IMG/VR virus record: IMGVR_UViG_3300021131_000048
Location: 1-23,569 of that record
Source: a virus
Length of the DNA: 23,569 nt
Reading direction: 5' to 3' (one strand)
Shown here: one piece after another, positions 4,439-18,536 of the stretch
Layout: each line of letters starts with the position of its first letter
Position numbering within the stretch: position 1 is the first letter of the stretch
Notes under the pieces: model-generated
What the model was told of the DNA's origin: nothing
What the model saw: only the letters and a program-made list of their open reading frames with translations
The model's database searches: none
Made by a program: the position numbers and the translations under genes

Positions 4439-4470
4439 TTTTTCTCCCTATGTAGTAATATATGTTGGTG

Positions 4471-4476
4471 TATAAT
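4471..4476 (+). promoter_or_regulatory. -10 element TATAAT giving a leaderless message
   Basis: A perfect TATAAT ends 6 nt before the ATG at 4483, so transcription should begin at the start codon itself. No clear -35 is present; a TG lies directly upstream of the hexamer, one base off the usual extended -10 spacing. This placement is the reason for preferring ATG 4483 over the ATG at 4462. Confidence 0.6.
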
Positions 4477-4482
4477 TACTGT

Positions 4483-5043
4483 ATGACTGCTATTACAATA
4501 ATACCAAACTTTATATCTGATGACCAATGCAAAACCCTAATGGATTTTATTGATTCAAATCTTAATTCATTTGAATTTTTAACCGATAGGCATATTAAAC
4601 TCTATGGTGAAGATAATTATCATAAAGAAAATAGTCCAGAAATAGATTGGGATTTTCTAAATTCAATTAAAGGTTTAGTTGAATTTATAGGAAAAAAAGT
4701 TGAAGATGCTGCAAAACTACAGTATGAAGATGACGATGTTCATTTATGTAATCTTTGGTTGTCCAAGCATGTTCCTGGTGCTAAATTAGCTTTCCATCAT
4801 GATATAGATCATGGTTTAAATCCATTTATTAAATATAGTTTAGTTCTTTATTTAAATACTATTGAAGATGGTGCTTTAAAGTTTCCATTTAGACGATATT
4901 CATACAAACCTAATGGTGGAGATTTAGTTATGTTTAAAAGTGGAGATATGTTAAATGGACATCAAGTTGATAAAATAAGCGATTATAGATATTCTATACC
5001 TATGTTTTTATCAGATAAAACTCACGCTTTATTTAACGTATAG
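4483..5043 (+). CDS. 2OG-Fe(II) dioxygenase
   Basis: A 186-residue protein of the 2-oxoglutarate/Fe(II) dioxygenase superfamily, prolyl-4-hydroxylase-like. The iron triad is visible as H105-X-D107 (FHHDIDHG) and distal H160 (NGHQVD). Arg169 (DYRYSIP) is the expected 2OG carboxylate ligand, and the double-stranded beta-helix strands (YSLVLYLN, GALKFPF, GGDLVMF) are in the right order. The substrate is unknown. It is the only plus-strand gene in the right part of the window and has its own TATAAT for a leaderless transcript. Its tail overlaps the convergent small ORF at 5029-5121. It is one of four members of this superfamily in the window. Confidence 0.85.
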   Translation: MTAITIIPNFISDDQCKTLMDFIDSNLNSFEFLTDRHIKLYGEDNYHKENSPEIDWDFLNSIKGLVEFIGKKVEDAAKLQYEDDDVHLCNLWLSKHVPGAKLAFHHDIDHGLNPFIKYSLVLYLNTIEDGALKFPFRRYSYKPNGGDLVMFKSGDMLNGHQVDKISDYRYSIPMFLSDKTHALFNV

Positions 5044-6209: not shown

Positions 6210-6239
6210 ATACTATCAAATTTATATATTGTTTGTCAA
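6210..6239 (-). promoter_or_regulatory. Promoter TTGACA-N18-TAGTAT
   Basis: On the minus strand TTGACA (6239-6234) is followed after 18 bp by TAGTAT (6215-6210) with the TG extension TGA just before it. The start codon at 6204 coincides with the expected transcription start. The TGA stop of the upstream 2OG gene (6238-6236) lies inside the -35 hexamer. Confidence 0.75.
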
Positions 6240-6682
6240 TCTCTTAAGTAAAAAAATATTGACTTTCTTGTACCCTTAGTTATTGGTAGCACTTGATGCT
6301 CGTAATCGTTTGTTCCTATATGACAGACTAAAGATCTTTTTTTAGGTTTATATGTTATATTTTTTTTAATATAATTAATTTGCCCGCCTTCAAAATCTTC
6401 ATTTAAATATATTACTAATCCATATTTACATGTAAGAAGGCCATCCCTAACACACACAGAGCATTCGCAACCTTCATCGTGAGTATCTGAATGTGGCTCT
6501 AAATAATCACCCTCAAGCATTGTCCTAAGCATGCCAGTGCCTAAAAGTTTATATTCATCATTAAATAATTTACTTATTTTATTTTTTATTTCTGTTATAT
6601 TATTGGGGTGTTGAGATATTTCATCTTCTGATAAAAAATCATATATTATAAATATGCCTTCATCTAAATATTCTTTTTCCAT
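6236..6682 (-). CDS. 2OG-Fe(II) dioxygenase with Cys cluster (paralogue 1)
   Basis: A 148-residue 2OG-Fe(II) dioxygenase: iron ligands H64-X-D66 and H129 (YEHQV), 2OG ligand R139 (GTRKS), and beta-helix strands YGLVIYLN and QINYIKKNITYKP. Directly after the HXD come a third histidine (H68) and C72-X-C74-X2-C77, a feature not usual in the family. It is a tandem paralogue of the next gene upstream, sharing the N-terminal layout (YLDEGIFIIYDFLSEDEIS) and every one of these ligands. The start overlaps that gene's stop as TAATG. The substrate is unknown. Confidence 0.82.
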   Translation of the reverse strand: MEKEYLDEGIFIIYDFLSEDEISQHPNNITEIKNKISKLFNDEYKLLGTGMLRTMLEGDYLEPHSDTHDEGCECSVCVRDGLLTCKYGLVIYLNEDFEGGQINYIKKNITYKPKKRSLVCHIGTNDYEHQVLPITKGTRKSIFFYLRD

Positions 6683-7137
6683 TAATTAGTTTCTTCTATC
6701 CAAAAGAATACAGATTTTCTTTCGCCTTCTTTAATTTTAGAAACTCTATGGGTATATTCTGAAGTTCCTAAATGACAAATTAAAGATCCTTTTTCTGGTT
6801 GATAAACTATATTTTGATAAAAATAAGTAATTTCTCCACCACCTGAAAAATCATCATTTAAATATATTACAAATGCGTATTTTGATCTTAACTGACCATT
6901 TTTGCTGCACCATTCACAAACACAAGTTAATCTGTGGCTATCATAATGTATATAATCAAAATCTTCTGGAAGTTGCGTTCTTACAAATCCTAAGCCTTTT
7001 ATTAAATATTCATCATTAAATAAACTACTTACTCTAGATCTTACTTCTTTTAAATTTTTTGGAAATTTAGAAATTTCATCATCTGATAAAAAGTTTTTTA
7101 TAACAAATATGTCTTTGTCTAAATATACTCTTTCCAT
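6682..7137 (-). CDS. 2OG-Fe(II) dioxygenase with Cys cluster (paralogue 2)
   Basis: A 151-residue tandem paralogue of the gene at 6236-6682. Iron ligands are H64-X-D66 and H130 (YTHRV), with R140 for 2OG. The H68 and C72-X-C74-X2-C77 insert is conserved at the same positions. Divergence elsewhere is considerable, so the duplication is not recent or was followed by specialisation. It is transcribed after the glutathione-peroxidase-like gene in what looks like one operon starting at the promoter near 8170. Confidence 0.82.
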   Translation of the reverse strand: MERVYLDKDIFVIKNFLSDDEISKFPKNLKEVRSRVSSLFNDEYLIKGLGFVRTQLPEDFDYIHYDSHRLTCVCEWCSKNGQLRSKYAFVIYLNDDFSGGGEITYFYQNIVYQPEKGSLICHLGTSEYTHRVSKIKEGERKSVFFWIEETN

Positions 7138-17502: not shown

Positions 17503-17503
17503 G

Positions 17504-17577
17504 CGATCTCAACGGGACTTGAACCCGCAACCTCCACCGTGACAGGGTGGCGATCTAACCAATTGATCTATGAGATC
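17504..17577 (-). tRNA. tRNA-Asp(GUC)
   Basis: 74 nt: perfect acceptor GATCTCA/TGAGATC, D stem GATC/GATC, anticodon stem CCACC/GGTGG with loop CTGTCAC (anticodon GUC), T arm GCGGG/CCCGT with loop TTCAAGT. Discriminator G, the usual Asp identity base; CCA not encoded. Confidence 0.95.
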
Positions 17578-17581
17578 CTAG

Positions 17582-17655
17582 TGGAACAGGTCAGACTTGA
17601 ACTGACGATTACCGAATTATGAGTTCGGGGCTTTGACCAACTAAGCTACTGTTCC
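17582..17655 (-). tRNA. tRNA-Met(CAU), elongator or Ile2
   Basis: 74 nt: acceptor GGAACAG/CTGTTCC, D stem GCTT/AAGC, anticodon stem CCGAA/TTCGG with loop CTCATAA, T stem GTCAG/CTGAC-type pairing. The first pair is G-C, so it is not an initiator. With anticodon CAU it could also be tRNA-Ile2 if C34 is modified to lysidine. Discriminator A; CCA not encoded. Confidence 0.9.
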
Positions 17656-17659
17656 TTGG

Positions 17660-17733
17660 TAGAATGTTTGCGAATTGAACGCAACTCTAGGGAGGATATA
17701 AGCCACCATCTGACCACCAGCCAGCCACATTCC
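17660..17733 (-). tRNA. Candidate tRNA-Ile(UAU), partly degenerate
   Basis: Acceptor GGAATGT/ACATTCT (one G-T), T stem TTGCG/CGCAA with loop TTCAATT, discriminator A and encoded CCA (17659-17657) argue for a tRNA. The anticodon arm GGTGG/CCTCC has a central T-T mismatch, with loop CTTATAT (anticodon UAU, reads AUA). The D stem is only 3 bp (CTG/CAG) and position 8 is G rather than T. It is either an unusual or a decaying tRNA. Confidence 0.65.
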
Positions 17734-17734
17734 G

Positions 17735-17807
17735 CTGGGGAAACAGGGCTCGAACCTGTGACCTAGGCATTAACAGTGCCCCGCTCTGCCGACTGAGCTA
17801 TTCCCCA
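17735..17807 (-). tRNA. tRNA-Asn(GUU)
   Basis: 73 nt: acceptor TGGGGAA/TTCCCCA, D stem GCTC/GAGC, anticodon stem GGGCA/TGCCT with loop CTGTTAA (anticodon GUU), T stem ACAGG/CCTGT. Discriminator G, the Asn identity base; CCA not encoded. Its 5' end is 4 nt after the stop of the 2OG gene, so it is co-transcribed with that gene. Confidence 0.95.
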
Positions 17808-17811
17808 AAAA

Positions 17812-18399
17812 TTAAAATGGAACTTTTTCCATTATTGATTCGTCTATTTCACAAACAATGTTTATTACTACTGAAGATCTAAAATCAGATTCTTTTGGAT
17901 ATTCCCAATTGTGAAAAATATCTCCATCAAAAAATAAAGCATACCCAGCTTTTGGTTCAAAAGATTTGAACAATGTTAAACTGTTTGGATCAACTTCTTC
18001 TCCAGTATATCTTTTATCGTAAAGGTTTGTATTTCCTTCAGAATCATTAACATAATACACGAAAGTGTAATGTTTTTCAACTCTTCTTAAATCTACGTGA
18101 GGATCCATAGGTCTTTGTTCTTTAGATCTAAATGTAAGATTTCCTCTTTGCCTAAGTATTTTTTTAATTTTTACATTATTTTTTTCTGCAAATTTATTAA
18201 TTAAAAAGGTAGCAAAATTTAAATCAAGAAAATCAACAACCATTATTCCATTATCAGAAAAATTATTGCTAGTTAAACCAACAACATTATCTTTAGCTGC
18301 GCCTATTGATTCTATGAATCTATATTTTTGAGAAAATAAAAAATTTCTTGCATATATAACTTCTTCTTCTGTTAAAAAGTTATTTACATAAAGATACAT
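17812..18399 (-). CDS. 2OG-Fe(II) dioxygenase
   Basis: A 195-residue 2OG-Fe(II) dioxygenase of prolyl-hydroxylase type. Iron ligands are H101-X-D103 (DPHVDLRR) and H163 (IFHNWEYP); Arg174 (DFRSSVVINI) binds 2OG. The strands HYTFVYYVN and AGYALFFDGD are in family order. It is only distantly related to the tandem pair at 6236-7137 and lacks their Cys cluster. The gene is preceded by a long structured leader (18419-18536) and followed at once by tRNA genes. An AAAGG site lies upstream of the ATG. Substrate unknown; hydroxylation of a host or phage protein, or of nucleic acid, is possible. Confidence 0.83.
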   Translation of the reverse strand: MYLYVNNFLTEEEVIYARNFLFSQKYRFIESIGAAKDNVVGLTSNNFSDNGIMVVDFLDLNFATFLINKFAEKNNVKIKKILRQRGNLTFRSKEQRPMDPHVDLRRVEKHYTFVYYVNDSEGNTNLYDKRYTGEEVDPNSLTLFKSFEPKAGYALFFDGDIFHNWEYPKESDFRSSVVINIVCEIDESIMEKVPF

Positions 18400-18418: not shown

Positions 18419-18536
18419 GTACGGTAAGCAAATTTCCTAACTGCATGAATGACCCAGATCCACCACGAATCCCATACCAGGTCTCATGTATGTAATATGT
18501 AACTATTCCATCCTAAGAAAGTGTTGCTTACCGTAC
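18419..18536 (-). ncRNA. Structured 118-nt leader closed by a 13-bp stem
   Basis: GTACGGTAAGCAA (18419-18431) and TTGCTTACCGTAC (18524-18536) are perfect complements enclosing 92 nt. The promoter at 18544-18573 predicts transcription to start at about 18537, that is at the foot of the stem. Inside, an imperfect inner helix can form (CATGAGACC with GGTCATTCATG). The element ends just before the ribosome-binding site of the 2OG gene. No start-to-stop frame of useful size fits on the minus strand. It could be a riboswitch-like leader, a 5' stability element or a processed small RNA. No known family is recognised. Confidence 0.6.

Follow-up and report, generated by a model that had tools for sequence, protein, structure and literature searches.

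The window analysed here is a whole 23,569-nucleotide (nt) stretch of DNA from a freshwater phage (IMG/VR virus record IMGVR_UViG_3300021131_000048, positions 1 to 23,569), and its minus strand carries, from 18536 down to 18419, a 118-nt element specifying a candidate small RNA with an antisense match to 23S ribosomal RNA (rRNA). The RNA reads GUACGGUAAGCAA-(92 nt)-UUGCUUACCGUAC, its 5′ arm (18524 to 18536) and 3′ arm (18419 to 18431) forming a perfect terminal stem of 13 base pairs (bp), P1 (GTACGGTAAGCAA...TTGCTTACCGTAC), that closes the 92 nt. The RNA strand folds with a minimum free energy of -39.7 kcal/mol (z -4.3), a stability that 200 dinucleotide shuffles never equalled. On the same strand a promoter with the perfect sigma-70 consensus, TTGACA-18-TATAAT, lies at 18573-18544, with 7 nt between its -10 box and the foot of P1 and an expected start at 18536/18537. 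The AAAGGA and ATG of a 2-oxoglutarate (2OG) oxygenase-like open reading frame (ORF; 17812 to 18399, minus strand) sit 3′ of P1, and seven transfer RNA (tRNA) genes lie downstream of the element, among them tRNA-Asn, -Ile, -Met and -Asp (17503 to 17807, minus strand). The initial annotation had described this element, with its perfect 13-bp stem enclosing 92 nt, a predicted transcription start at the stem foot and an end short of the ribosome-binding site, and had placed it in no known family, all of which holds: a Rfam 15 covariance-model search of the RNA strand of the window element and two relatives gave no match at E<=10. Rfam hits at the gathering threshold and at E<=10 were tRNAs and chance matches only. 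A Y RNA or YrlA was considered and rejected, there being no Ro60 (TROVE) gene in 18 contigs, some of them fragments, and no Rfam match. The terminal inverted repeat also raised the possibility of a retron msr-msd, the mark of which would be a reverse transcriptase next to it.

Relatives were collected by scanning IMG/VR with a shared core, CUUAGGAUG-N(1-5)-AUAGUUAC, together with a stem filter, giving a family of 56 distinct elements, 77 to 136 nt long, with 41 different P1 5′ arms. When the stem filter was omitted, a P1 of at least 11 bp was present at 25/25 distinct non-truncated core loci, compared with 3.9% of positions picked at random within those loci, while a control with a scrambled core of equal composition found 21 stretches against 110, only one of the 21 having such a stem. 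Conversely, a search with the stem alone, CGGTAAGCAAN{70,100}TTGCTTACCG, its interior unspecified, retrieved eight stretches that have the promoter and an unvarying 5′ part in common before diverging, and all eight bear the core. Aligning 10 sequences shows pairing in 99.2% of P1 cells and changes on both sides in 11 of the 13 pairs; for the whole structure 94.6% of cells pair, against at most 52.5% when the alignment is slid. The covariance model recovers the window element with 51.5 bits (E 2.3e-11), and the core occurs once per contig in all 22 large contigs searched. The element begins 0-2 nt after a tRNA gene in 30 of the 56 members and 5-8 nt after a -10 box in 24, with neither in the remaining two, and because tRNA ends and -10 boxes place it independently, these sequences give good support to a 5′ end at the stem foot. 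The elements form a hitherto undescribed family of small RNAs in phages, the majority located inside a phage tRNA gene array or at its head. No named phage in the searched collection carries the element, and BLAST of the elements against named phages and plasmids gave only a single 21-nt match, to a gut phage without annotation. A match in a Synergistaceae genome (L129) has no stem around it and was taken as chance.

Member architecture varies. Many members place the core in a hairpin that displays AUAGUUAC in its loop, the 3′ side of which is not kept in every case (L015). L146 (4671-4771 of its minus strand, numbered in that orientation), and likewise L171, is another circular permutation, with the core beside the 3′ arm of a 13-bp stem, not the 5′ arm. 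In L154, L158, L165 and L168 the core is followed by a GC-rich terminator-like hairpin, some having a module-B-like sequence (see below) ahead of the core, and three of them (L154, L165, L168) sit downstream of ORFs that by eye resemble those for cell-wall lysis.

The initial annotation placed the element ahead of a 2OG oxygenase/tRNA operon and read it as a riboswitch-like regulator (of iron, 2OG or redox state) or else a stable processed RNA. The seven tRNAs of that operon stand, while the ORF matches a 2OG oxygenase weakly (PF13640, 21.7 bits against a cut-off of 27). A cis-acting 5′ leader of the downstream operon, whether riboswitch or attenuator, is what the window taken singly would suggest, the element there being a 5′ leader that finishes before the ribosome-binding site, but the element is missing where 2OG-protein homologues in other contigs have the same Hsp20 gene beside them (L002, L003, L006), and relatives lie between tRNAs or ahead of unrelated genes. 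Indeed, the ORFs near other promoter-borne members are mutually unrelated, and the constant gene or pathway in cis that marks a riboswitch or cis-leader is not found among the members, whose downstream genes vary and many of which lie between tRNAs. In the window the 2OG-like ORF sits between the element and tRNA-Asn; in L089, L092, L093 and L095 tRNA-Asn is directly 3′ of the element with no gene between, and since relatives are without the ORF we place it outside the RNA unit. Regulation in cis is consequently highly improbable. A stable processed RNA, in contrast, fits a covarying P1 and an RNA start that coincides with transcription starts or tRNA ends, and the compensatory stem changes that the initial annotation had proposed to look for are abundant in relatives. 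Its interpretation is therefore partly supported; what it could not see is the antisense match of the core and most of the variable part to 23S rRNA.

The core is antisense to 23S helix 69 and its 3′ flank (GUAACUAU-AAC-CAUCCUAAG, E. coli 1910-1929). In the window, core part 1, CUUAGGAUG (18509 to 18517, minus strand), is antisense to CAUCCUAAG at 1921-1929 (E. coli numbering, actinobacterial sequence), and core part 2, AUAGUUAC (18499 to 18506), to GUAACUAU in the helix 69 loop at 1910-1917; the spacer between them, GA (18507 to 18508), is an imperfect match to A1918-A1919-C1920. Among 745 windows of 16S, 23S and 5S rRNA, 15 of 17 divergent cores had their best duplex with helix 69, which ranked second for L132 and fifth for L014. 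With the bare core only 0 or 1 of 150 shuffles matched helix 69 as well, the bare core of L012 having its best window elsewhere in 23S. E. coli 23S (GUAACUAUAACGGUCCUAAGG, 1910-1930) leaves part of the core unpaired. The actinobacterial reference, a Tsukamurella plasmid copy (L217), reads GUAACUAUAACCAUCCUAAGG, so that CUUAGGAUG pairs with it completely, the AUG of the core being complementary to the actinobacterial CAU. This match fits the phage hosts, which look actinobacterial: the actinobacterial regulator WhiB is encoded in the window and in 18 of 24 contigs tested. The predicted pairing of core to helix 69 is strongly supported by these comparisons, and display of AUAGUUAC in a hairpin loop would suit loop-loop contact with the helix. 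Two other readings of the core were discarded: a two-codon minigene, AUG-NNA-UAG, because the spacer varies from 1 to 5 nt, and a CsrA-like AGGAUG site, whose bases vary among relatives and are accounted for by complementarity to rRNA.

Complementarity extends beyond the core. With P1 and core removed from 25 representatives, antisense 6-mers peak in 90-nt 23S windows starting at about 1881-1946 (84, against a mean of 29.5 and standard deviation of 11.5), above every other 23S or 16S window. For 23S 1930-1985 there are 59 antisense 6-mers and 19 in the sense orientation, and none of 1000 shuffle sets reached the antisense count (mean 15.8, maximum 31). Local alignments to actinobacterial 23S are collinear, with p<=0.05 against their own shuffles in 19 of the 25; they cover AUUCC (1938-1942), CUGCAC-GAAUGG (1962-1973) and, less well, a stretch near 1990-2008, usually skipping the helix 71 hairpin. 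In the window these segments correspond to module C, GGAUUCGUGGUGGAUCUGGG (18453 to 18472, minus strand), imperfectly antisense to about 1990-2008 and weaker than the core, and module B, CAUUCAUGCAG...GGAAA (18433 to 18451, minus strand), antisense to about 1962-1972 and 1939-1942. The antisense order along the RNA is 1929-1910 and then about 2008-1932; the element is therefore laid out as a circularly permuted antisense strand, its P1-sealed ends near 1930.

Actinobacterial 23S has CCAUCC where E. coli and many other bacteria have CGGUCC, and a search for CUUAGGAC-N(1-6)-AUAGUUAC found 71 distinct sites in other phage contigs. Excluding perfect-complement sites, the spacer ends in GUU, the complement of A1918-C1920, in 22 of 66 (about one expected), the form CUUAGGAC-NGUU-AUAGUUAC matching CGGUCC-type 23S. 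A terminator-like site follows 14 of these 22 on the same strand and none on the opposite strand. Only a few nt separate several sites of this class from the stop codon of a gene encoding a head or virion structural protein (two PHROGs), and UCGCUAC, antisense to 23S 1931-1937, occurs at most 110 nt downstream in 13 of the 71, often in the terminator loop; one upstream case resembles antisense ribosomal DNA (rDNA). We take the match of CUUAGGAC cores to the 23S of a presumed host type to be the strongest indication of function. We lean slightly towards the general view that phages of several bacterial groups carry host-group-matched antisense RNAs against 23S helix 69-71, in several architectures (a P1-sealed, circularly permuted form in tRNA arrays, or hairpin plus terminator after major head genes), which would amount to a general, unrecognised RNA-based control of ribosomes.

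The complementarity could alternatively be a functionless relic in a stable structural RNA, for instance a 5′ cap or spacer stabilising tRNA precursors, that arose from an antisense rDNA fragment. Such an origin would account for the P1 seal and the position heading tRNA arrays; it is very unlikely given that the complementary positions are kept while P1 and the remainder diverge, and that the same core recurs in other architectures and in host-matched versions. Transcription of the other strand into a sense 23S decoy was also rejected, because promoters, tRNAs and the terminators of the CUUAGGAC class lie on the antisense strand.

Among individual contigs, L139, L140, L222, L226, L235, L247 and L257 each have an anti-helix-69 hairpin between a capsid-type gene, whose stop codon is a few nt away, and a terminator; their cores match non-actinobacterial 23S or variants, and the genes upstream in L139 and L257 belong to major head or virion structural PHROGs. 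In L231, L236, L251, L259, L263, L265, L284, L292, L293, L297 and L313 a CUUAGGAC...AUAGUUAC core precedes a hairpin displaying UCGCUAC in or near its loop. A noncoding region of L319 (1499-1660; MT835492, a human gut phage) has GUUAGGACUGUUAUAGUUAC, then ACCUUAG and a terminator, and is possibly another anti-23S RNA.

Helix 69 bridges the ribosomal subunits and participates in decoding (PMC12805891), and because the conserved core is complementary to this helix of host 23S, these phages probably make a ribosome-binding RNA. The family, its covarying P1, starts and strand, the complementarity matched to actinobacterial 23S and the single copy per contig are read directly from sequence. We consider it fairly probable that a trans-acting small RNA pairs with the helix 69 region of host 23S in free or maturing 50S subunits and so alters subunit joining or translation. 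The window RNA would be transcribed from its own promoter, and in relatives cut out of the tRNA array by tRNA-processing enzymes; with its ends locked by the P1 helix it would accumulate, its core base-pairing with helix 69 and the 3′ flank while modules B and C pair with 23S at about 1932-1942, 1962-1976 and 1990-2008 around helix 71. As the target region faces the small subunit, binding would be expected on free or maturing 50S, and the RNA bound to free or assembling 50S would compete with 70S formation, allowing the phage to restrain or remodel host translation. The helix 69-70 region is reachable in free 50S, since MazF-mt6 cleaves helix/loop 70 in 50S but not in 70S (PMC5408214). By such binding the phage may shut down, hold, protect or adapt ribosomes.

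Several points weigh against this interpretation. The duplex centre opposite A1918-A1919-C1920 is imperfect in all 56 elements, none having the exact GUU spacer, though its one-step neighbours are common. The Tsukamurella copy stands in for the actual host 23S. Searching with the core brought in most of the relatives, which makes its invariance in part a product of the search (the stem-only set gives a clean but small test), and shuffle counts are not strict probabilities because relatives are not independent. The module C match is weak, and duplex energies of the variable part alone are only mildly ranked (median percentile 0.14), a measure dominated by longer GC-rich windows. Expression, processing, actual binding and the direction of any effect on translation we infer from the sequences, and since the phage itself needs ribosomes, plain inhibition would need timing or selectivity.

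The same binding could instead be protective, the RNA guarding helix 69/70 in free 50S against host toxins that cut rRNA or against nucleases of abortive infection, while phage tRNAs can stand in for cleaved ones. The element sits in tRNA arrays, and module B covers 23S UUCC 1939-1942, inside the UUCCU cut by actinobacterial MazF-mt6 in 50S, not 70S (PMC5408214), but the best-conserved part is the helix 69 core and not the MazF site, and covering helix 69 should by itself block 70S formation; we judge protection unlikely. Similarly doubtful is a role in aiding or diverting 50S assembly or rRNA modification rather than inhibiting translation, as an RNA chaperone or as a blocker or guide of helix 69 enzymes such as TlyA at C1920. 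This enzyme is a helix 69 methyltransferase of importance to ribosome assembly (PMC12805891), several separate antisense modules surround one domain, and the centre opposite A1918-C1920 is unpaired in 56/56 actinophage elements; perfect centres do occur, however, in the CUUAGGAC class, and neither a modification enzyme nor a guide-like box was identified.

Pairing of the RNA with helix 69 would differ from what is established for comparable RNAs. The T4 RNAs C and D (species 1/2 stable RNAs; 139 and 119 nt) are likewise small phage RNAs beside a tRNA cluster, but they contain no CUUAG or UAGUUAC motif and hence no shared core, and were rejected as homologues. Trans-encoded antisense small RNAs of bacteria and phages likewise use imperfect, multi-part pairing, and the conserved complementarity to a target encoded elsewhere that marks them is found here at 23S 1910-1929 for 56/56 cores and at about 1932-2008 for most variable parts. 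The known examples target messenger RNAs, whereas the target of the phage RNA would be the functional centre of 23S rRNA. Ribosome-associated noncoding RNAs and the rRNA guide RNAs of archaea and eukaryotes have ribosomes or rRNA as their site of action, and the guides work through base pairing; the present RNA is phage-encoded in a bacterial host, and inspection by eye showed no C/D or H/ACA arrangement. GOLLD and ROOL are also phage RNAs, often near tRNA islands, and for GOLLD ribosome binding in pull-down assays is reported (PMC12286853), but they are hundreds of nt long with elaborate folds, and the phage elements here have no Rfam match to them. A synthetic peptide nucleic acid against the same helix inhibits E. 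coli growth, according to Kulik et al. 2017 as cited in PMC7038079, and the phage RNA would apparently be its natural counterpart. No phage RNA antisense to rRNA is reported in Rfam or in the literature searched. If the proposed pairing is correct, phages use RNA as well as proteins to seize a functional part of the bacterial ribosome that is among its most conserved, and their RNA suggests a naturally occurring antisense design for helix 69, whose sensitivity to antisense inhibition has already been demonstrated. As the roles of T4 RNA C/D, GOLLD and ROOL in tRNA clusters are open, the antisense reading also gives a directly testable mechanism.

Elsewhere in the window, three more ORFs resemble by eye small 2OG/prolyl-hydroxylase-type oxygenases (4462-5043, plus strand; 6236-6682 and 6682-7137, both minus), and a second perfect TTGACA-18-TATAAT promoter lies at 19080-19051 on the minus strand, upstream of the Hsp20 gene.
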